This document shows, piece by piece, positions 7,295 to 22,392 of a stretch of DNA of 23,644 nt. This DNA comes from a virus. Below the pieces are notes generated by a model that searched no databases, had not been told where the DNA came from, and saw only the letters and a program-made list of their open reading frames with translations. The stretch covers positions 1 to 23,644 of IMG/VR virus record IMGVR_UViG_3300017613_004222; one strand, 5' to 3'. Positions within the stretch are counted from its first letter, which is position 1, and each line of letters begins with the position of its first letter. A program made the position numbers and the translations under genes.

Positions 7295-8639
7295 AAATAG
7301 AATCAGTGAATTATTTTTCAATCAGCCGCTTGCGCTTCATGAAGATATGATCGGCCCTATAGGTGCGATTATTGATCGCCACACCGAAGGCATTAAATTG
7401 TCAGATTTAGAAGTTGAAGCCGCAATTGGACAGGGCCAAAGACAGGCAAAGGGCTATGAAGTGATTAATGGTGTTGCGGTCATTCCTATTATTGGAGCAA
7501 TTTCAAAACGTATGAATATGTTTAGTCGTATCAGTGGAGGCACATCCGTTGAAATGTTGCAAAAAGATTTCCTGCAGGCATTAGGAGATCCCCAAGTGAA
7601 AAGAATAGCTTTTGATATTGATAGTCCTGGAGGAACTGTGGGGGGAGTGCCTGAATTGGCAGATGCAATTTATGAGTCAAGAGGAATTAAGCCGATTGAA
7701 TCATACATTAATGGTCAGATGTGTTCCGCTGCTTATTGGATAGGATCCGCCGCAGATAAAATTTATGCAACCAAAAGTTCTATTGTTGGCTCTATTGGTG
7801 TTTATACAGTTGCCAAAGATTATACGGTTATGGAACACAATCGTGGGGTGCGAAGTGAAGTTATCCGGGCAGGAAAGCATAAAGCCGCTGGGCATCCTGA
7901 AAAGTATTTATCCAGTGATGACATTAATATTATGCAGGCAAGAATTAATGATTTTTATGAATTGTTTATTGATGCAGTTGCAAAAAATCGAAATATTTCA
8001 AAAGAGAAAGCTTATGAGCTAGGTGATGGAAACTTTTGTATTGGGCAAAAAGCCCTGGGCATTGGTTTAGTCGATGGTTTAGCCGTATTAGATTCCATTA
8101 CAACTGGCAACAATTCCGCAATAGTTGCGGATGCGAATCCGTTAATTATAGATGCAGATAATAAAAATAATAATAAGGGAGAAGAGAATATGGGAAAAGA
8201 AATAAAAGATTTAACACTTAATGAATTGAAGGCGGAGAATCCTGAGTTGGTAAAGAAGATTCAAGATAACACAATTGATGCATTAGCCGAGAAGGAAACC
8301 TTGGGTAAAGATAAAGTCATTGAGGCAATAGATGGTGAAAGAGCAAGAGCAACTAAAATTTTAAATCTTGTCAAGATTGAAGCTTATTCGGAGTTCGGAG
8401 ATTTAGCTGGTGAGTGTGTGGGAAAAGGTGATTCTTTTGAAGTGGCCGAAGGAAAATTTAAAGATGCTCGTATAAAAATTTTAGAAACTAGCGCACCTCA
8501 AACGCCTGGATCTGGCGATGGTGATATAAATGCGTCTGGTGAAAAAACACCTCTAGCGAAAGCTAAAGAGTATGCCGCAGAGCATAAGTGTAGTATTGCA
8601 GATGCATTATCAGCGACTGCAGAAAAACGAAATAGGTAG
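7287..8639 (+). CDS. Prohead protease-scaffold, S49 (GpC-like)
   Basis: The 450-residue product combines an S49/SppA-type serine protease (about 50-280) with a helical C-terminal region. The protease shows the oxyanion motif DSPGG (near 113-117), a nucleophile candidate S147 in MCSAAYW, and a catalytic lysine candidate K199 in AGKHKAAGHP, a Ser-Lys dyad. A linker rich in Asn, Asp and Lys (about 285-300) leads to the scaffold part. As in lambda C/Nu3 it should help build and then clear the prohead interior. The ATG at 7287 is preferred because GAGGAGG ends six bases upstream; ATGs at 7266 and 7281 are in frame but lie before or against that site. The start overlaps the portal stop by 8 bases. 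Confidence 0.93.
   Translation: MRENRISELFFNQPLALHEDMIGPIGAIIDRHTEGIKLSDLEVEAAIGQGQRQAKGYEVINGVAVIPIIGAISKRMNMFSRISGGTSVEMLQKDFLQALGDPQVKRIAFDIDSPGGTVGGVPELADAIYESRGIKPIESYINGQMCSAAYWIGSAADKIYATKSSIVGSIGVYTVAKDYTVMEHNRGVRSEVIRAGKHKAAGHPEKYLSSDDINIMQARINDFYELFIDAVAKNRNISKEKAYELGDGNFCIGQKALGIGLVDGLAVLDSITTGNNSAIVADANPLIIDADNKNNNKGEENMGKEIKDLTLNELKAENPELVKKIQDNTIDALAEKETLGKDKVIEAIDGERARATKILNLVKIEAYSEFGDLAGECVGKGDSFEVAEGKFKDARIKILETSAPQTPGSGDGDINASGEKTPLAKAKEYAAEHKCSIADALSATAEKRNR
8190..8639 (+). CDS. Nested capsid scaffold, Nu3-like, made from an internal start
   Basis: Inside the protease gene, in the same frame, AAGGGAG (8175-8181) sits 8 bases before an ATG at residue 302. Starting there gives a 149-residue protein, MGKEIKDLTLNELKAENPEL..., that is charged, helix-prone and without the protease domain. 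Lambda makes its scaffold Nu3 in exactly this way from the 3' part of gene C. The ribosome binding site and the domain border coincide, which supports real internal initiation; the product itself is inferred. Confidence 0.7.
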   Translation: MGKEIKDLTLNELKAENPELVKKIQDNTIDALAEKETLGKDKVIEAIDGERARATKILNLVKIEAYSEFGDLAGECVGKGDSFEVAEGKFKDARIKILETSAPQTPGSGDGDINASGEKTPLAKAKEYAAEHKCSIADALSATAEKRNR

Positions 8640-8709
8640 AAAGATGATTTTTAAAGAAATCAGGTAAAGATTCATAATCACATGTTAAATGAAAATCGAG
8701 GAGGATAAT

Positions 8710-9494: not shown

Positions 9495-10454
9495 ATGATA
9501 AATCATTCAGGATTAAGAGGAGTTCCAAGGCTGGATTTATCAGCCGCAGTTGAAGAATATATTCAAAATGATAGCGATTTTATCGGGACAAAAGTTCTTG
9601 CTATTAAGGATGTACCACAGCAGTCATCTAAATTTAAAGCAAAAACCCGTGCTAGTGTGACGCTTGACGCGGATACAAAAAGAGCCAAAAGCGGGCATTA
9701 CAATCGCATTTCTTTAGAGGTTAAAGATTTAACTTATGCCTGTGAAGAAAATGGCCTTGAGGAGGTATTAGGTGATGATGAGCGAAATCTCTACGAGAGT
9801 GACTTTGATGCTGAGTTTGCGACAGCAAAGAATGTTGCTGATGCTCTGAAGAGAATGCAGGAGAAAAGAATTTCAGAAGCAGTATTTAATACTTCAACTT
9901 TTTTTGGATCTGATCTCTACACGGATGCGGCGGCAACAAAAGCATGGAACGATGCCACTGCAGATGCAATCGGGAATGTCAGGACTGCAAAGCGAAAAGT
10001 TAAGGCGAATTGCGGGATAACTCCAAATGCATTAATTTTAAATGGAAATATTTTAGAATATTTGAAAAGTAACACCGCAGTAAAAGACGCAATTAAATAC
10101 ACAGCACGCTTAACTGAGGCTGAAATCTCAAATGCGATTGCCGATTTATTTGGCGTTGATTATGTCCTGGTCGCAGATAGCATCCGCAATTCCGCGAAAA
10201 AAGGTAAAGCATTTTCATCATCAGCAATTTGGTCTGACCTTTATGCAATGGTAGCTATTATTGCATCGCATGGCAGCGATCTAAGGACGCCAAGCCTCGG
10301 CCGCACACTGTTGTGGACTACCGATAGTCCAGATAATTGTACTGTTGAGGAATATCGGGATAATCCGGCAAGAGGTGATGTTTATCGTGTAAGGCAAAAT
10401 ACGGAAGAAAAGATTATTGATCCATATTTTGCGCACCTTATCAAAGTCACTTAG
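9495..10454 (+). CDS. Major capsid protein
   Basis: The 319-residue protein starts behind AAAGGAGGAA and lies right after the decoration gene, in the gpE position. It has the character of an HK97-fold capsid subunit: a charged N-terminal arm (VEEYIQNDSDFIGTKVLAIKDV), a long spine helix (DAEFATAKNVADALKRMQEKRISEAVFN, about 103-131), an A-domain with NALILNGNILEYLKS and GVDYVLVADSIRN (about 175-235), and a C-terminal WSDLYAMVAI / GRTLLWTTD / DPYFAHLIKVT series typical of phage coats. Several hundred copies should form the icosahedral shell. Its length suits a coat that relies on a separate scaffold, consistent with the nested gene upstream. Confidence 0.88.
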   Translation: MINHSGLRGVPRLDLSAAVEEYIQNDSDFIGTKVLAIKDVPQQSSKFKAKTRASVTLDADTKRAKSGHYNRISLEVKDLTYACEENGLEEVLGDDERNLYESDFDAEFATAKNVADALKRMQEKRISEAVFNTSTFFGSDLYTDAAATKAWNDATADAIGNVRTAKRKVKANCGITPNALILNGNILEYLKSNTAVKDAIKYTARLTEAEISNAIADLFGVDYVLVADSIRNSAKKGKAFSSSAIWSDLYAMVAIIASHGSDLRTPSLGRTLLWTTDSPDNCTVEEYRDNPARGDVYRVRQNTEEKIIDPYFAHLIKVT

Positions 10455-10549
10455 GAGGCAGATTTTTAATATCGATGAAAATAAGAAATATTGACATCTC
10501 CGGTATAAGTATTCGGGGATGGCAACTTCTTAAATTTGTGAGGTGTAAA

Positions 10550-10735
10550 ATGTCTAAAGAAAAACAAGAAGTAATTAAGGGCTCAAAGGTTAAGTTGGCT
10601 TTGGCCTGTGACAGATACGTAGACGGCAAAGATCGGATTGCGGGGTACGTTGTTTATGATGAGGGATTAGTGGGAAGCCTTAAGAGATTCGATTTTGATA
10701 TTTTATTGAGAAAAGGCTTTTTGAAAGGGGCCTAA
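10550..10735 (+). CDS. Small protein after the capsid gene, unknown function
   Basis: A 61-residue product, MSKEKQEVIKGSKVKLAL..., begins at an ATG with GAGGTG five bases upstream. The same frame runs back to an ATG at 10475, but that one is about 17 bases from the nearest GGAGG, so the shorter form is preferred. The sequence looks like one small beta barrel (KVKLALACDRYVDGKDRIAGYVVYDE) and a C-terminal helix. No family is recognised. Its place after the major capsid gene is that of lambda gpFI or of small completion proteins, which is only a positional hint. Confidence 0.6.
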   Translation: MSKEKQEVIKGSKVKLALACDRYVDGKDRIAGYVVYDEGLVGSLKRFDFDILLRKGFLKGA

Positions 10736-10740
10736 TAGAA

Positions 10741-10776
10741 AAAAGAGGGGGCTTGTTTTTATTGAGAGCAAGCCCC
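10741..10776 (-). terminator. Hairpin with a minus-strand terminator layout
   Basis: A perfect 8-bp stem, GGGGCTTG (10748-10755) with CAAGCCCC (10769-10776), has no T-run on the plus-strand side. Read on the minus strand, the stem is followed by CTCTTTTTTC, the classic intrinsic terminator order. It may stop antisense transcripts, or stabilise the 3' end of the capsid message on the plus strand. It marks the border between the core head genes and the inserted fibre cassette. Confidence 0.55.
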
Positions 10777-10798
10777 GTTGACAGTATTGAGGTAAGGG

Positions 10799-11152
10799 AT
10801 GGAAAAAAATCTTCAAATATATCGTGGTGATGATAAAAATTATAATTTTGTTTTTAAAGATGGAGATGGAAGTCCTATAGATATTACAGGATGGATTCTA
10901 TTCTTCACGGTAAAGTCAACAGTAGATGATGCAATAAATGATGATGCGGCTGAAGTGATAAAGACAATATCAGCACACACGAATCCTGCAGAGGGTCAAA
11001 CAACTGTCTCGATATTGGATACAGATACAAATGGTTTAAGCGCAGGTGATTATTATTACGATTTTCAAGTGAAGAAAAGCACAGGGAAAATTATGACCAT
11101 CATGCATGGTGGGTTAGAAATAACGCGTGAAGTAACTCGAAGGATTTCATGA
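10799..11152 (+). CDS. Ig-like structural protein (BppU N-terminal-like)
   Basis: The 117-residue product starts behind GAGGTAAGGG. Its opening, LQIYRGDDKNYNFVFKDGDG..., then DITGWILFFTVKS, SILDTDTNGLSAGDYYYDFQV and IMTIMHGGLEITREV, follows the beta-sandwich pattern of the N-terminal domain of BppU-type baseplate proteins and similar Ig-like phage domains. Such domains attach accessory or fibre proteins to a virion. It heads a group of three genes joined by 4-base overlaps, so it may be the anchor for the fibre encoded third. The fold call is from pattern; the role is inferred from the neighbours. Confidence 0.6.
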   Translation: MEKNLQIYRGDDKNYNFVFKDGDGSPIDITGWILFFTVKSTVDDAINDDAAEVIKTISAHTNPAEGQTTVSILDTDTNGLSAGDYYYDFQVKKSTGKIMTIMHGGLEITREVTRRIS

Positions 11153-11496
11153 TGTCTAATCAGGATATAGAAGTGACGGTTGGGTCAACAAATATAGAGG
11201 CAACGATTGAAGATGATCAGGTTATAAATATAACATTTGCGAGTGCATCATCAGGGCAGGTGTTATTAACCGATTTAATTGATGGAGCCTCCCCCGTTGA
11301 ATCTCCTGATGGCATCAGAACAGATTTTACATTGCCTAATGGGGATAAATATATTTCCGGACGCCTTAAAATCTATAGGGATCACGCAAAGCTTATTCGC
11401 GAAGTAGATTATATAGAAACAAGCCCAACCATTTTTAGATTAACAGTGCCGACAGATAGTGACGAAAAACTAACAATGGATTATATCAGACAATGA
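11149..11496 (+). CDS. Small beta-rich phage protein, unknown function
   Basis: The 115-residue product overlaps its upstream neighbour by 4 bases (ATGA); an adjacent second ATG at 11152 is an alternative start. The N-terminal half is repetitive and hydrophobic-polar (VTVGSTNIEATIEDDQVINITFASASSGQ). The second half (DGIRTDFTLPNG, SGRLKIYRDHAKLIREVDYIE, FRLTVPTDSDEKLTMDYIRQ) has the pattern of a small beta domain common in phage fibre-associated proteins, where the phrase DGxRTxFTLP recurs. It is probably a virion component linking the Ig-like protein and the fibre. No firm function. Confidence 0.6.
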   Translation: MMSNQDIEVTVGSTNIEATIEDDQVINITFASASSGQVLLTDLIDGASPVESPDGIRTDFTLPNGDKYISGRLKIYRDHAKLIREVDYIETSPTIFRLTVPTDSDEKLTMDYIRQ

Positions 11497-13775
11497 AAAA
11501 AATATTTTTTATTTTCATAATATTTTTATTTATGAAATCAAGTGTTTTTGCAGGCACAAAGGCCAAACGTGTAAAAGTTGAGGATGCCGGAGGGTATTTT
11601 GATGGAATAAATGTTGAAGAGGTTTTGCAGGAAATAGGGGCAGCTGGAGGAGTAGGAAATTTATCGGCAGTTTGGGAGTGTTTATCCGGAGATTGCAAGG
11701 CTTTAATTGCTAGTAATGATGATACTTTAGATGTTTCTGGAATTAATTGGTCTATTCCGATGAAGATGTCAATGGATTGTAGCGGAGAATTAATCGAGGG
11801 GCATATGTGTTGGGATACGGATGACGATAAATTGTATGTGGGTGATAATACCAGTGCAAGTGAAATAGGATCTGGGTCGCAATTAACAGAAGAACAAGTT
11901 GAGGACTTTGTCGGTGCAATGTTAGCCGGAACGGAAACACGGATCACGGTCACTTATGATGATGCCGGAAATATGATTGATTTTGTTGTTGATGACATGA
12001 ACCAAAGTGAATGCTCTTCTTCCTCGTGTGATTTGAATATAGGGACAACGCTTAATGCTCAAGGGGTATGCCTTGCCGATGGTACGAATTGTCCTGCAGA
12101 TGATGATGCCCCGGATAATGATTCAGAAGTTCCGGACGCAATAACCGTCACTGGATACATGCAAGATGCTGATATAAATACTTTTTCAGAAATACAAGAT
12201 TGGGTGAGTGACGCAACGCTTTTAAAAGGGGGAATTTTAACGGATACAAAATTTTGCGTATATGACAGTGCAAGCGGAACAATAGCCTGTAATGCCGAGG
12301 CTGGGTCAACATTAACGCAGGAGCAAGTGGATGATTATATCAGTCAATTAATCAACGATCCTGACTCAGTACATACAAGGATCAGTGTTGTTTATGATGA
12401 TGTAAATAACGCGTATGATTTTATTGTAGATGATATGAATGATGACATCCCGGATAGTGGCGATTTAGGAATAATTGATACAGAAACGGAATTTGAAAGT
12501 GAGCTCTTTTCCATAACAACCCCTACAGAAGTTACAAACGCAATTTCGACACATGAGTCCACCTATAGCCATTTAAATTACAATACGGCATACACGCATA
12601 GCCAAATAGCCACAGGGAATCCTCATAGTTTAGATTATGTTGATATTGGTTTATCTGCTGATCAAATCAAGGATTGGACCCTAGATCAAGGGGCAACAAA
12701 TATCCATGAGGGGAACTATGTTGAAACAGATCCTAAAGTGGGAAATTTAACGGCAGATAAATGGTGTAAAGAGGATAGCGGACAAGTTGTTTGCAACCAG
12801 AATACTCCTGCAGATACAAGCGCAAATACACAGTGCACAGGCACAACCACCTATTATGATGGTGACGGGAATTGTGATGATATATCAACCGTGTATGAGG
12901 CAGCAGATACAGACATAGCAAAAAGAAATGAAGATGAGGTTATTACCGGAGCTTGGGACTTTGGAGGAGGAGGTCTTGAGATCCCCAATAGCATTTCGTT
13001 GCCCGGGACTTGCACCGTAGGAGCGTCGTATATGGATACCGATGCAACAAGTGGGCAGAGGTTTTATTTATGTGAATCTTCTAATTCATGGGTGGCGCAA
13101 GGAGTTGCAGGAGGATCAAGTGTATGGAGCGATGGAGGCACTTATATATATCCTGCTAATGATGAAGAAATTAGGACTAGAGGTTATGTCTATAATAATA
13201 GTTTTATAGGTGAAGGTGCCGGGGGAACTTTAAATATTGCACATGAAAATAATGTTGCCTTTGGAAAAAATGCATTAGGGTCTTTATTCAACTCATCTTC
13301 TGACCTTAATTCAGCCTATGGCTCATATTCATTGCAAAAGTGTGATGGTTGTAATGAAAACGCCGCTACTGGATATCATGCATTAGGTGATGTAGTTACA
13401 GGTTTTAGAAGTGCTGCTATAGGATTTAAAGCAGGAGATTTATTGAATGCTAGTTCTAGCTATAATTCAATATTAGGTTCTTTTGCATGTGGAAATGTTG
13501 CTGATGATATTGATAACTCAATTTGTATAGGGTATGCGTCTGGGTATGGAAATGTTTCTAGTAATGAATTATGGGTTGATAACTCGCCTACAGCCACTCC
13601 ACTTATTTTTGGAGATTTCTCATCGGATGAACTTACGATCAACGGAGTTCTCATAGCTGCCCCTGCAGCATCAAGAACATGTGATGCCGGGACAGAAGGC
13701 GGGATGATGTATGACAGTGATGATAATAATTTTTATGGCTGTGACGGGAGCTCATGGAATCAGCTTAATAATTAA
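11493..13775 (+). CDS. Fibre/adhesin-like protein with a signal peptide
   Basis: The 760-residue product begins with a clear Sec signal peptide: KK, a hydrophobic core IFFIFIIFLF, and SSVFA before G21. The mature part opens with VKVEDAGGYFDGINVEEVLQEIG, a motif common in phage fibres. A domain of about 40 residues is repeated, at 131-170 and 273-316: L-T-x-E-Q-V-x-D, R-I-(T/S)-V-x-Y-D-D, DF-x-V-DDMN. Near 587-690 come YadA-head-like repeats (NVAFGKNALG, AATGYHALG, AAIGFKAG, SICIGYASG). A short Trp/Cys motif occurs at about 103-115, 510-535 and 736-757. Cysteines are frequent, fitting an exported protein. The ATGA overlap ties it to the two genes before it. Either an exported surface adhesin carried by the phage, or a fibre with an unusual N-terminus. 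Confidence 0.75.
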   Translation: MKKIFFIFIIFLFMKSSVFAGTKAKRVKVEDAGGYFDGINVEEVLQEIGAAGGVGNLSAVWECLSGDCKALIASNDDTLDVSGINWSIPMKMSMDCSGELIEGHMCWDTDDDKLYVGDNTSASEIGSGSQLTEEQVEDFVGAMLAGTETRITVTYDDAGNMIDFVVDDMNQSECSSSSCDLNIGTTLNAQGVCLADGTNCPADDDAPDNDSEVPDAITVTGYMQDADINTFSEIQDWVSDATLLKGGILTDTKFCVYDSASGTIACNAEAGSTLTQEQVDDYISQLINDPDSVHTRISVVYDDVNNAYDFIVDDMNDDIPDSGDLGIIDTETEFESELFSITTPTEVTNAISTHESTYSHLNYNTAYTHSQIATGNPHSLDYVDIGLSADQIKDWTLDQGATNIHEGNYVETDPKVGNLTADKWCKEDSGQVVCNQNTPADTSANTQCTGTTTYYDGDGNCDDISTVYEAADTDIAKRNEDEVITGAWDFGGGGLEIPNSISLPGTCTVGASYMDTDATSGQRFYLCESSNSWVAQGVAGGSSVWSDGGTYIYPANDEEIRTRGYVYNNSFIGEGAGGTLNIAHENNVAFGKNALGSLFNSSSDLNSAYGSYSLQKCDGCNENAATGYHALGDVVTGFRSAAIGFKAGDLLNASSSYNSILGSFACGNVADDIDNSICIGYASGYGNVSSNELWVDNSPTATPLIFGDFSSDELTINGVLIAAPAASRTCDAGTEGGMMYDSDDNNFYGCDGSSWNQLNN

Positions 13776-13801
13776 TTAATTAAGAAAGAAGGAATTAAGC
13801 A

Positions 13802-14023
13802 ATGAGTGAGCAATGTGTTCAAGGGGCAACTAATGCGGAGAAAGTCAAGGGTCTAGAGGCTCGAATGAAGAAGGTGGAAGAAGCTATTACTGATATGAGG
13901 GACGGATTACTAAAACGCCCTTCTTGGTCGGTAACCATTGTCATAACAATATTATCATCCTTAACATTTGCGAGTTTAACGTTTTCTTTTACTATCATCA
14001 GAATAACATTTTTAAAATCATGA
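13802..14023 (+). CDS. Small one-helix membrane protein, XhlA/holin-like topology
   Basis: The 73-residue product starts behind AAGGAA. Residues about 12-38 form a charged, coiled-coil-like helix (EKVKGLEARMKKVEEAITDMRDGLLKR), followed by a single hydrophobic segment at 42-68 (WSVTIVITILSSLTFASLTFSFTII). Cytoplasmic coil plus C-terminal membrane helix is the layout of XhlA-type lysis-associated proteins and some phage membrane proteins. No endolysin lies next to it, so a lysis role is unproven. It follows the signal-peptide fibre and overlaps the next gene by 4 bases. Confidence 0.55.
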   Translation: MSEQCVQGATNAEKVKGLEARMKKVEEAITDMRDGLLKRPSWSVTIVITILSSLTFASLTFSFTIIRITFLKS

Positions 14024-14208
14024 AAAATATTAAGAAAGAAAATTTTGTGAAGAATTTTTTAAGGGTGGTGGAGAGTCGGCTTAATAAAGATTTGCCTCAA
14101 GAAGCCAGCGAGGGGGAGTTTATTATGCGGGCCTATGATCTTACGTCCGGTCAATTGCGACATGTGATAATTGAAAAATATTCCGTTATAAAGGGGGAAA
14201 AAGGATGA
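14020..14208 (+). CDS. Small phage protein, unknown function
   Basis: A 62-residue product, MKNIKKENFVKNFLRVVESRLNKD..., starts at an ATG overlapping the previous stop by 4 bases. The frame is open further upstream, but that part lies wholly inside the membrane-protein gene and is a shadow. The sequence suggests an N-terminal amphipathic helix and a short beta segment (FIMRAYDLTSGQLRHVIIEKYSV). It overlaps the joining-protein gene by 4 bases. No family is recognised. Confidence 0.6.
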   Translation: MKNIKKENFVKNFLRVVESRLNKDLPQEASEGEFIMRAYDLTSGQLRHVIIEKYSVIKGEKG

Positions 14209-14552
14209 GTTTTAAAGATATACTGGCCGATGACATGAAAAATGTCATTCTTAACACGAATGAGTTTGCAGAGGCAATTACTTATGTCCCCAAGGCAGGC
14301 GATGAGAAGACTATTAATGCCATAGTAGAGAGAGATTTATTAGCTCCTATTGGGTCCGGGGGAGCTGATACTCGCCATAAAATCATTGAAATATTAATAG
14401 CTAATGATGCAACCAAAGGGGTCACTTCAGTCAATTTAAACGGAGATTATGTCAAGGTGGCTGAGTATGTTGGGCATCCGGTTGAGAGGTACAGGATTAT
14501 CGAGATTGTGGAGGTCAATTCAGCATCGTGGGCCTTAAGATGTGTTAAGTAA
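14205..14552 (+). CDS. Head-tail joining protein, gpFII-like
   Basis: The 115-residue product, MSFKDILADDMKNVILNTNEFAEAITYVP..., has the opening typical of lambda gpFII-type joining proteins and the related Gifsy-2 family. The beta-rich remainder (INAIVERD, HKIIEILIANDA, GDYVKVAEYVGHPVERYRIIEIVE, SWALRCVK) fits a small barrel. It should form a ring on the head completion proteins where the tail docks. AAGGGGG seven bases upstream supports the start, and the position before the tail genes agrees. Confidence 0.7.
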   Translation: MSFKDILADDMKNVILNTNEFAEAITYVPKAGDEKTINAIVERDLLAPIGSGGADTRHKIIEILIANDATKGVTSVNLNGDYVKVAEYVGHPVERYRIIEIVEVNSASWALRCVK

Positions 14553-17384: not shown

Positions 17385-19289
17385 ATGGGATTAACGAATA
17401 AAGAACTTAGTATTAAGATGACCATGCGTGATATGGCCACAAAAGAGCTGACACGCGCACAAGGTCGTATAAAGAAGTTTTCTCGAAAAGCTAAACAGGG
17501 CTTTGTCAGCCTGGCAGCAAAAGTGTATTTGGCTGAGAAGGCGTTTCATGCCTTAAGTGCGGCCGTTAGTAAAACAGCCATTCCTTTAATACAGGTAGGG
17601 TCAAAAGTCGAAGATCTTAAAATTCGACTTAATGTTTTATTTAAAAGTACAGAGAAGGGCAACCAGGTTTTTAAGGATATGTCCACGTTGGCAGGCAATG
17701 TTCCTAAGACATATGATGAAATCATGGAATCGGCCACAAATTTAGCCGGTGTGGTTAAGGGCGGAACAGATGAGATAAATAAGTTAATGCCGATGATCGT
17801 AGATATTTCCTCTGCGACAGGATTGTCTGTTGAAGAAACAACATCACAGATGATAAGAATGTATAGTTCCGGCATAGCTTCTGCGGATATGTTTAGGGAA
17901 AGAGGTATTAGTGCAGCATTAGGGTTTAAGTCGGGGATTTCGTACACAAATCAAGAGACAATGGATATTCTTTACAAGCAATGGGAAGAAGGATTTGGAA
18001 AGTATGTTGGGGCCTCAGAACAATTAGCTACGACTTTTACCGGAATGTCATCGATGATGCAGGATGCATGGTTTCAATTCAAGCAAGGCATAGGTGAGCC
18101 GATGTTTGAAAGCATTAAAGTAGATATGCAGGCTGTATTGAAATTGATCGAGGCCAGTAAAAAAGAAGGCGGCGAGTATAGCGGAGTTATTAAAGATATG
18201 GGAGAGTCGTTTCAGGAGGCTTACGATTCTGCAAAAAATTTATTTGCTGTTGCTTTGATTGGCGGAGGTCAGGTAATCGATATTTTTAATGAAATTGTAT
18301 TTGCTTCTAAAGGTGCACAGGCTGCATGGGTTGGTATGATATCGGGAATCATGAGTGGAGCATCTTGGCTTGGTAATATTCCAGGAATCGGTTCTAGAAT
18401 AGTTGATAAAGAAGCTCTTGAAGCAGGGGTAGATGCAGCTATTGAGGGTCTTCATAGACTAAACACAGAAATTAAAGAGGCACGAGAAAGGGCGGATGTT
18501 GATTATTCAGAGAATATTGAGCAGAGAATCCAGGCGTTTAAAGAGTCCTTAGATCAGGAAAAAGAAGCTTTAATTGAGCATCAAGAGGACTTAGGGCGAA
18601 TAGTTATTGAGGGGGATAAGCAGATAGCTCAGAGGGAAAAAATCATTGAGTTGACTGATTTGCAGAAAGAAAAATATAAGGAGTTGGGTGCGGTTAATAA
18701 GCAGATTGAGAAAGCTTTCAGCCGTAATTTAGCCGGTATGATGACCGGCGCCAAGACAGCCAAAGAAGCTTTTCAGGGCTTAGGAGATGTTTTAGTTAAT
18801 ATGATTGCCAATTATCTGGCTGAGTGGATTATTGCCAAAACAGTAGGCCAGGCGCTTGAGAAAACAGCGGTGGCTTTAGCTGTCACAGATGCAGTCATTT
18901 TAGCTGAGGCTTGGAAGCCTGCAGCCGTCTTTGCGGCAGTTGCTACAGCAGGAGGAGCCGCTGTAGCGGGTGCTGCAGGGTTGACGGCAGCCTATATGTC
19001 AGCAACCGGATTAAGTGCTGTTTCAAAAATTCCGGGGTTAGCTGAAGGGGGAATTGTGCCAGCAACACCAGGAGGACGCATTATTAGAGTTGCGGAGGGG
19101 GGAGAAGATGAGGCAATAGTTCCTCTTGGAAAAGGGGGAAATAGGGTAAGTGAATATATGGGTGAAAGTGCTGTGATCATTGAAGAAATAAATATCTATG
19201 GAAATGTGGATGAGGGTAATGCAAGAGACTTAGCTGAGGAAATTGGGGAGGTTGTGCGACGTGAGCGAGGATATATTAGGAGTTTATAA
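17385..19289 (+). CDS. Tail tape measure protein
   Basis: The 634-residue protein begins with the standard KELSIKMTMRDMATKELTRAQGRIKKFSRKAKQGF coil-forming opening. Then comes the SKVEDLKIRLNVLF ... PKTYDEIMESATNLAGV ... ATGLSVEETTSQMIRMYSSG region characteristic of tape measures. A coiled coil follows at about 355-445, a strongly hydrophobic alanine-rich block at about 500-550, and the usual ending GLAEGGIVPATPGG...GEDEAIVPLGKGG (about 552-590). It fixes tail length and may enter the host membrane during DNA injection. At roughly 0.15 nm per residue the tail would be near 95 nm. The start abuts the upstream stop. Confidence 0.95.
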   Translation: MGLTNKELSIKMTMRDMATKELTRAQGRIKKFSRKAKQGFVSLAAKVYLAEKAFHALSAAVSKTAIPLIQVGSKVEDLKIRLNVLFKSTEKGNQVFKDMSTLAGNVPKTYDEIMESATNLAGVVKGGTDEINKLMPMIVDISSATGLSVEETTSQMIRMYSSGIASADMFRERGISAALGFKSGISYTNQETMDILYKQWEEGFGKYVGASEQLATTFTGMSSMMQDAWFQFKQGIGEPMFESIKVDMQAVLKLIEASKKEGGEYSGVIKDMGESFQEAYDSAKNLFAVALIGGGQVIDIFNEIVFASKGAQAAWVGMISGIMSGASWLGNIPGIGSRIVDKEALEAGVDAAIEGLHRLNTEIKEARERADVDYSENIEQRIQAFKESLDQEKEALIEHQEDLGRIVIEGDKQIAQREKIIELTDLQKEKYKELGAVNKQIEKAFSRNLAGMMTGAKTAKEAFQGLGDVLVNMIANYLAEWIIAKTVGQALEKTAVALAVTDAVILAEAWKPAAVFAAVATAGGAAVAGAAGLTAAYMSATGLSAVSKIPGLAEGGIVPATPGGRIIRVAEGGEDEAIVPLGKGGNRVSEYMGESAVIIEEINIYGNVDEGNARDLAEEIGEVVRRERGYIRSL

Positions 19290-19291
19290 TT

Positions 19292-20494
19292 ATGGGAAAG
19301 GCATTTAAAATTAGTCCGATCAATTTGCTCGCAGACTGGGGGTATGTTGAGGATTGGTCAGAGGGAGATAGTTCGGCACCTACTGGATGGTTGATGGCCG
19401 GGACTGCAGGGAGCGTGTCTAAGGAAAGTACGGAGAAAAAGTTTGGTAACTATGCAATGAAAATTATTTCGGGAAGTTCTGCAAGCTATAAAGCAGAAAA
19501 TTCCTATTCTAATTATACAGCACTTGCCGGACGGACGATCACATTTGGGATGTATGTAAAATGCTCATCGGCAAATAAGGCACGATTATATATTTATGAT
19601 GGCATGGCAACGGTTAATTCTTCTTATCATAGCGGTGGGGGAGATTGGGAGTTTCTTGAGGTTGAAATTCAGGTAGATGAAAGTAATACAGAATTAACAT
19701 TTGGTTGTGAGGTCCAGAGTTCATTGATTGCAGCATATTTTGATTGTGCGATTTGCTGTGAAGGCGAAGACTTGTTTTTTGAACTGGACAGTAGCGATGT
19801 AGATGTTCAGGATTGGTCGCCTAAGCCGAAGCTGGAGCGTACGATTTTTAAAATACCAAGCCGTCCAGGTGTGCTGATGCCGGATGTCAAATATGGTCGA
19901 AAAGATATCAAAATTAAAATGGCAGTTGTCGGGAGTGACTACTCAGCGTGCCGCACGATGTATGATTCCGTTAATAAAGCGGTTGTTGGGGGAGAAAAAG
20001 AGTTGTATCTATTTGATGATCGCATACAAAATGCAAGGCTGATCAATATATCCAAGCTTCAATATAAGGCATCCCTGCTAATAGGGATTTTTACTCTGAG
20101 CTTTATTGCCGAAGATCCTTTTAATAGATATATCTGCAAGACCAGAAAGAAACAAACCATATCCTCAAGCCCGGCATCATTTAACCTCTCCTGTTTAGGC
20201 AATGTGGAAGTATTTCCTGTAATCAGCTTTCAGGCAAATGGTGCGGACATGACGAATTGCACACTCAAGAATTTAACCACAGGCCAGAGTATGAATTTTA
20301 CCGGCACGGTTCTCGATGGAAATATTTTGGAAATCGATTGTGCCAACAGAACTGTAAAAAATAACGGAGTCAACAGTACTTCTAATTTTACGGCCGCAGG
20401 GCATTTTATCAAGTTTATTTCGGGTACAAATTATTTGAAATTCACAGGGGATAACTGCATTATTAAGATCGATTGGTATAACAAATGGATTTAA
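19292..20494 (+). CDS. Distal tail protein (Dit) with a carbohydrate-binding-like domain
   Basis: The 400-residue product has three parts. Residues about 10-160 (NLLADWGYVEDWSEGDSSAPTGW, FGNYAMKIISGSSASYKAEN, TITFGMYVKCSS, EFLEVEIQVDESNTELTFGCEV) follow the jelly-roll pattern of CBM4/9-type carbohydrate-binding modules. About 170-285 match a Dit/tail-family core (FKIPSRPGVLMPDVKYGRKDIKIKM, GGEKELYLFDDRIQNARL, FTLSFIAEDPFNRY). The final part is a beta domain (NVEVFPVISFQANG...FIKFISGTNYLKF). Dit forms the hexamer at the end of the tail tube; the extra domain would let it touch cell-surface sugars. AGGAG lies about 9 bases before the ATG. Confidence 0.82.
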   Translation: MGKAFKISPINLLADWGYVEDWSEGDSSAPTGWLMAGTAGSVSKESTEKKFGNYAMKIISGSSASYKAENSYSNYTALAGRTITFGMYVKCSSANKARLYIYDGMATVNSSYHSGGGDWEFLEVEIQVDESNTELTFGCEVQSSLIAAYFDCAICCEGEDLFFELDSSDVDVQDWSPKPKLERTIFKIPSRPGVLMPDVKYGRKDIKIKMAVVGSDYSACRTMYDSVNKAVVGGEKELYLFDDRIQNARLINISKLQYKASLLIGIFTLSFIAEDPFNRYICKTRKKQTISSSPASFNLSCLGNVEVFPVISFQANGADMTNCTLKNLTTGQSMNFTGTVLDGNILEIDCANRTVKNNGVNSTSNFTAAGHFIKFISGTNYLKFTGDNCIIKIDWYNKWI

Positions 20495-21627: not shown

Positions 21628-22392
21628 ATGGTAGATGCAAATTCAACATATTCAACCACAAAAGATACTTTCCAAGATCCGGAAGATGACAAAGACGTCT
21701 ATGAGGCAGATTATCTCGTTAAGCTTCATAACGTCCTGATCGCCATGCAGAATGCTTTAGGGACAGAGATAGAAGGGACAACAACTGATTTAAAAACACG
21801 ATTAGCAAGATGTTTGTCTGATGATGGATCTATGAGGCAGGGGACCTCTTTCCCTTCATCTCCAAACGAGGGGGATTTCTTCTACAGGGCAGATGAAAAT
21901 GTTATGTACATCTATAATGGCTCTTCATGGGATGCTCAGGGGCAATCTTTAAGCAATTTAGCGTTTTGCTACCAAAGAGGTGGCTCTAATCATGCAGCTG
22001 CATCTCATGGTTTACTTGATCCTGGAACGGTAGAACATCATGATGGATCCAATATAATAGTTTCCCCTGTTTGGGCAGTTTTTGGCAATACCTATCGAAC
22101 GATTATCACTGGAAAATTTAAAAAGTTGGCAGGAGTCAATACCGTTACTGTGTATGCGAAAATATTATCAAAAAATAGCAATGCTTCTTATTATGTTTCC
22201 GTTGAAGCCAATATTGGCGGTCAGAGTGCATCTCAATCAGGATCAACGACAAGCACGGCCTGGGAGTGGATTAGTTTTAATGTTGATGTCTCTAGCTTAA
22301 CAGATGGATCCATCTATGATGTTACCATTAAATTGAAACATTCAACAGCCAGAGTCGCCTATATGGATTCGATTATTGGGTTTACAAGTTAA
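21628..22392 (+). CDS. Tail fibre / receptor-binding-like protein
   Basis: The 254-residue product starts behind AAGGAGA. Residues about 1-60 hold an ordinary fibre-like start (DVYEADYLVKLHNVLIAMQNALG). Around 75-101 is FPSSPNEGDFFYRADENVMYIYNGSSW, a short trimeric-fibre motif also present in the signal-peptide fibre upstream. The C-terminal part (about 110-254) is a beta sandwich (TYRTIITGKFKKLAGVNTVTVYAKILSKN, SASQSGSTTSTAWEWISFNVDVSSLTDGSIYDVTIKLKHS) of the kind that binds sugars or proteins. It follows the hub gene, the usual place for the receptor-binding protein. Confidence 0.72.
   Translation: MVDANSTYSTTKDTFQDPEDDKDVYEADYLVKLHNVLIAMQNALGTEIEGTTTDLKTRLARCLSDDGSMRQGTSFPSSPNEGDFFYRADENVMYIYNGSSWDAQGQSLSNLAFCYQRGGSNHAAASHGLLDPGTVEHHDGSNIIVSPVWAVFGNTYRTIITGKFKKLAGVNTVTVYAKILSKNSNASYYVSVEANIGGQSASQSGSTTSTAWEWISFNVDVSSLTDGSIYDVTIKLKHSTARVAYMDSIIGFTS

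Follow-up and report, generated by a model that had tools for sequence, protein, structure and literature searches.

A fibre-like phage protein with a predicted Sec signal peptide and paired cysteines, encoded between capsid and head-completion genes

The window, meaning the whole stretch of DNA analysed here, is a complete 23,644-base IMG/VR record from an uncultivated tailed phage, and it encodes a fibre-like protein of 760 amino acids (11493..13775, + strand) that combines a Sec signal peptide with 11 cysteine pairs. The best reading of the region is a fibre cassette of phage type, in which the fibre has become a Sec-exported protein stapled by disulfides. As judged from its sequence, the fibre seems to be folded outside the cytoplasm, because the export signal occurs together with the 11 pairs, and we consider it highly probable that the protein is exported and carries disulfides. 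A literature search restricted to open-access papers, which is weak evidence, found no description of signal peptides on tailed-phage fibres.

The signal peptide and the start codon

The reading frame proposed in the earlier note is exact in its coordinates, start and length, and the Sec signal peptide that had been read at its N-terminus is borne out. Residues 1-20 (11493..11552, + strand) form the sequence MKKIFFIFIIFLFMKSSVFA↓G, with a KK n-region, an I/F/L h-region and a VFA↓G site, and reach a score of 5.58 with cleavage after A20. The score comes from a crude home-made rule (charged n-region, hydrophobic core, and small residues at positions -3 and -1), not from SignalP, and by this rule the window fibre presents a tripartite signal peptide with an AXA-like cleavage site. 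The rule is passed by 18 of 601 open reading frames in the window and the viral loci (non-overlapping, at least 90 aa), and among the passing frames listed the window fibre is outscored only by the gene at 11249 of a second phage (locus L022), which also encodes a fibre. When N-termini were drawn at random from the protein compositions of the window itself, 4 of 108,000 scored at least 5.58; among the start codons of the fetched DNA, a set that includes true signal peptides, 6 of 22,937 did so. Two further loci that pass the rule, L046 and L050, were not counted as fibres, since their products resemble tail-tip proteins whose N-terminus is hydrophobic.

The hydrophobic N-terminus might instead have nothing to do with export, the fibre being cytoplasmic and either translated from M14 or keeping the hydrophobic segment, which could serve, for instance, in trimer formation or attachment. 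The absence of a Shine-Dalgarno sequence before the ATG at 11493 is consistent with this explanation, whereas the overlap of that ATG with the stop codon of the upstream gene (ATGA) and the canonical cleavage site argue against it. A start at M14 (11532), which had been named as an observation that would overturn the signal peptide, is not favoured, with neither a Shine-Dalgarno sequence nor coupling found there. Taken with the cysteine and second-phage data described below, a fibre that stays in the cytoplasm appears improbable.

Paired cysteines and fibre modules in two phages

The protein had also been described as rich in cysteine, which holds: it contains 22 cysteines in 760 residues, every one C-terminal to the signal peptide. 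Taken in order along the chain, they make 11 close pairs (63/68, 96/106, 174/179, 193/200, 255/266, 425/434, 448/461, 507/527, 617/620, 666/678 and 730/750), and pairs this close are expected under random placement with a P of about 5e-5. Cysteine makes up 2.9% of the window fibre, against 0.38% in related fibre proteins that lack a signal (8,717 residues), so that its content is about eightfold that of comparable signal-less fibres. The mature part thus has the even, locally paired cysteines of a Sec-exported disulfide protein, and the pattern, as far as it can be read from the translation, is the look of a protein folded in an oxidising compartment. The 11 close pairs are the strongest new evidence that the signal works.

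Cysteine content alone was rejected as a marker of export. The window protein at 19292-20494, a tail protein at the Dit position, has 11 cysteines, which are odd in number and unpaired, and it lacks a signal peptide. A DNA pattern search for LYxCNGTxW in viral contigs gave mostly chance or single-cysteine versions (L041, L043, L044 and L052), indicating that one cysteine alone is no marker of export.

The module CSGELIEGHMCWDTDDDKLYVG (residues 93-130; 11769..11882, + strand) has a cysteine pair in the window fibre and in a signal-peptided fibre of the second phage. In 14 other viral loci it takes the form EGDxxYDTDDDKLYxRDEDSWNE, which is free of cysteine, and the proteins there have no signal peptide; many of these loci are near copies of one another, and the number of lineages among them is small. 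The C-terminal module CDAGTEGGMMYDSDDNNFYGCDGSSW (13665..13772, + strand), which holds the pair 730/750, resembles PSSPNEGDFFYRADENVMYIYNGSSW in the window's tail-region protein at 21628, where it is cysteine-free and the protein bears no signal. From these module comparisons, the cysteines are judged to go with the signal and not with the module, an association resting on four signal-peptided proteins in two phages. That the modules have paired cysteines only where a signal is present speaks against a cytoplasmic fibre.

The YadA-head-like repeats reported in the body of the protein (residues 585-700, with two cysteine pairs; 13245..13592, + strand) are partly upheld. Four N/S-x-A/S-x-G-x3 units can be recognised at residues 587-648, and a partial match of 33% links the window fibre to a megaphage fibre full of YadA-head-like repeats; no Pfam YadA/Hep_Hag match was obtained, so that this part is YadA-like by resemblance only. 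An AlphaFold2 model from the single sequence, made with no alignment, has a pLDDT of 36 and is uninformative; only the stretch of the C-terminal module reaches about 70.

The viral contigs searched contain no close full-length homologue of the window fibre, and the one partial match obtained is that to the megaphage protein; there is likewise no match among PDB sequences and no Pfam, PHROG or NCBIfam family. The collections searched thus offer no lineage along which conservation of the signal could be followed, a point against the best reading. Prophage relatives, sought by capsid, were absent from 84,980 genomes.

The second case is L022 (IMGVR_UViG_3300021437_000012), an uncultivated siphovirus-like phage of 88.6 kb and the sole other phage with the paired-cysteine module. 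Its fibre with this module begins with the signal MKRIIIILTILLVATIVWSQ..., after which come CAGSTLEGDTCWDTDDDKFYIG and a collagen-like fibre body. The L022 tail region encodes three fibre or spike proteins with signal peptides (7890-8660, 9510-11252 and 11249-13792), which contain 6, 8 and 4 cysteines, all even counts; the neighbours of the CWDTDDDK fibre, at 9510 (a right-handed beta-helix) and at 11249, thus bear signals as well. The post-signal module of the 11249 protein recurs in 19 other viral loci (L061-L079), near the N-terminus of reading frames without a convincing signal. Applied to those frames, the signal rule gave just three weak matches, each overlapping the module itself, and the second cysteine of the first pair (59/119) is missing in 19 of 19 loci.

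The L022 genes share with the window fibre gene the signal peptide, the paired-cysteine CWDTDDDK module, the upstream ATGA overlap and a small transmembrane gene downstream. They differ in their location at the tail end, downstream of the head-tail adaptor and tail genes, in their collagen and beta-helix bodies, and in being three in number. The evidence from both genomes suggests that two unrelated phages have each put ordinary phage fibre modules downstream of signal peptides, a recurrence that further disfavours a hydrophobic N-terminus of no use for export. Two other features of this phage were observed: its fibre and spike genes are followed by genes for a small transmembrane protein and a lipoprotein-like product, and a long run of glycosyltransferase/methyltransferase-like genes, as read by eye (L086:22-11187), lies just upstream of its head-tail adaptor gene.

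The fibre cassette and its genomic slot

All genes of the window point one way, starting with terminase, portal, an S49-type protease, a decoration-like protein and the major capsid protein; the fibre region is followed by head-completion (14205), tail, tape measure (17385-19289) and tail-tip genes. Reading the translations by eye gave the names terminase, portal and protease, and the other genes are named from family matches. The major capsid protein (9495..10454, + strand; phrog_1005, E 8e-46; Phage_cap_E) precedes a protein of 86 aa at the start of the cassette (10475..10735, + strand), which had no family match in Pfam and PHROG searches. Next comes a BppU_N-like protein (10799..11152, + strand), matching phrog_1084 with an E of 1e-22, for which BppU_N itself falls below the Pfam cut-off. 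The 115-aa protein between it and the fibre (11149..11496, + strand) may be an adaptor, as its start resembles, by eye, the 'IEV' proteins encoded downstream of BppU_N-like genes in other phages; BLAST found no match between it and the adaptors of those phages. On the 3' side of the fibre lie a 73-aa protein with a coiled coil and a single transmembrane segment (13802..14023, + strand), a 62-aa protein (14020..14208, + strand) with an ATGA overlap at either side, and the head-completion or joining protein (14205..14552, + strand). For the 62-aa gene, the start at 13924 in the list of open reading frames is too early.

The ATGA overlaps joining 10799 to 11149, 11149 to the fibre, and 13802 to 14020 and 14205 place the fibre within a translationally coupled late gene run, in which a BppU_N-like gene lies upstream of it as in a fibre cassette. 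The coupled run extends to the head-completion gene, with no excess of promoters or terminators. A moron with its own promoter was rejected for lack of promoter support, and a frameshift fusion of 11149 with the fibre was also discarded, the A-rich stretch being located 3' of the stop codon.

The fibre had been described as sitting between capsid and head-completion genes, not at the tail tip. This position is confirmed by the flanking major capsid and 14205 genes, while its oddness is not, because Stanwilliamsviridae carry a homologous cassette in the same place. In the Streptomyces phages Beuffert, Enygma and Wakanda of this family, the gene order is major capsid protein, small protein, BppU_N-like protein, one or two fibre-type genes and head-to-tail adaptor. 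The slot and order are those of the window; the fibre position holds a collagen-like 'minor tail protein', and the gene at this position in Beuffert carries that annotation. The BppU_N-like proteins of these phages are 29-34% identical to window 10799 (E 2e-13 to 4e-17, with 4e-17 in BLAST for Enygma gp51), and a BppU_N-like profile scan of viral contigs hit one Streptomyces phage locus only. Rhizobium phage RHph_TM16 shares with the window a BppU_N-like gene that has a short 'IEV' protein after it, and large fibre-type genes are close by; its 'DNA helicase loader' (L082:3992-4330) is the BppU_N-like cassette protein, and that annotation looks wrong.

The Stanwilliamsviridae and RHph_TM16 cassettes indicate that the position is a known fibre slot, possibly a head or neck fibre slot, and that the signal is the novelty. 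The fibre counterparts in Enygma, Wakanda, Beuffert and RHph_TM16 have no signal peptide, in contrast to the window fibre, and those of the Stanwilliamsviridae contain 0-3 cysteines. The signal-less state of the comparable Streptomyces phage fibres is a point for the cytoplasmic explanation given above.

The nearest relative by capsid (L007, 51%) has its head-completion gene directly 3' of the capsid gene, and that gene is 43% identical to window 14205, from which it follows that the window has about 3.7 kb extra in this slot. Such an insert could be a host adhesin captured as passenger cargo with no part in phage propagation, since it is absent from L007 and since the signal and cysteine repeats resemble cellular secreted fibres. 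This origin is very unlikely in view of the gene overlaps, the coupling to cassette and head genes, a codon usage that is ordinary and, like the GC3, within the window's range, and the finding that, of 299 genomes from the phylum that gave the single cellular match, only 2 match, and these partially. Another capsid relative (L018:8377-10385) has a different four-gene insert in the same post-capsid slot, including a transmembrane protein.

Where the exported fibre would act

The proposal that a phage-type fibre is exported is supported, and is strengthened by the cysteine pairing and by L022. The sequence singles out none of the three functions suggested for it, namely an adhesin displayed on the infected or lysogenic host, a blocker of superinfection, and a fibre loaded outside the inner membrane. 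The window fibre shows no surface anchor, be it a beta-barrel, a lipobox, an LPXTG motif or a C-terminal transmembrane segment, and has no family match to an anchor or barrel domain. No lysogeny-type promoter for its gene was found in the window either. The lack of an anchor and of such a promoter slightly favours loading outside the inner membrane.

The preferred reading, a fibre cassette with an exported and stapled fibre, would proceed from the insertion of a cassette (small protein, BppU_N-like protein, adaptor and long fibre) between the major capsid and head-completion genes, and from the gain of a Sec signal peptide by its long fibre. Export of this fibre to the periplasm or envelope would take place late in infection, with cleavage after A20 and with disulfide stapling during trimerisation; the Sec and Dsb pathways provide the basis for such export, processing and bonding. 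At lysis, the matured fibres might then meet virions already bearing the cytoplasmic BppU_N-like and adaptor proteins, and might dock on the capsid, neck or tail to form adhesive fibres that point outwards. It counts against the preferred reading that cytoplasmic assembly is the rule for tailed-phage fibres, and that virions are taken to be wholly built in that compartment; we know of no fibre of this type for which loading at lysis has been demonstrated. The whole chain of export, disulfides and docking on the virion is held tentatively, with a little less than even confidence. It is rather doubtful as a generalisation, that is, that some tailed phages build the particle in the cytoplasm and Sec-exported, disulfide-stapled fibres in the periplasm and join them only at lysis.

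Alternatively, the exported fibre could act outside the virion, in the periplasm or at the surface of the infected cell, where it would block or decoy phage adsorption or make the cell adhere. It would then be the phage-encoded analogue of a group of Bdellovibrio fibres, the mosaic adhesive trimers (MATs), which are phage-like and carry signal peptides. The signal peptide and cysteine pairs suit any exported fibre, and Bdellovibrio MAT fibres are exported adhesins resembling phage tail fibres that combine signal peptides, trimeric form and, in some cases, disulphides, an example of signal-peptided fibres of phage type that function on a cell surface (PMC10769870). The MATs, compared here by description, are encoded and used by a predatory bacterium and not by a phage, and many of them have a C-terminal Peptidase_S74 domain (PMC10769870), for which the window fibre gave no Pfam match. 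YadA-type trimeric autotransporter adhesins share with the window fibre a Sec signal peptide and YadA-head-like repeats, but the window fibre lacks their C-terminal membrane anchor, with no Pfam match to it, and ends in the short cysteine module. A Thiotrichales protein with cysteine repeats and a similar module, which adjoins signal-peptided tail-collar-like proteins, also fits action outside the virion. Such action is a real possibility, although the anchors listed above are all absent, the gene lies in a late, virion-coupled run without a promoter of its own, and its upstream neighbours are virion-type cassette proteins without signals. Between docking on virions at lysis and staying on or around the infected cell, we lean slightly towards docking, because the cassette is of virion type and a surface anchor is lacking.

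If a recurrent class of such fibres is real, it would imply either a two-compartment maturation of virions or phage-made surface adhesins that alter the infected cell. A signal peptide together with paired cysteines in fibre modules is a simple genomic marker by which further fibres of this kind could be sought. Two side observations concern signal-like N-termini elsewhere. In the Thiotrichales genome (L058 / L057:73-4153), the cysteine-repeat protein has CANGQVMKFDGTDWACAAD repeats, and the three tail-collar-like proteins beside it start with hydrophobic, signal-like N-termini. In two viral contigs (L045:5535-7220 and L056:6421-8106), a 561-aa protein with a signal peptide and acidic Met/Glu-rich repeats is followed by two transmembrane proteins, one of which is phrog_20984.
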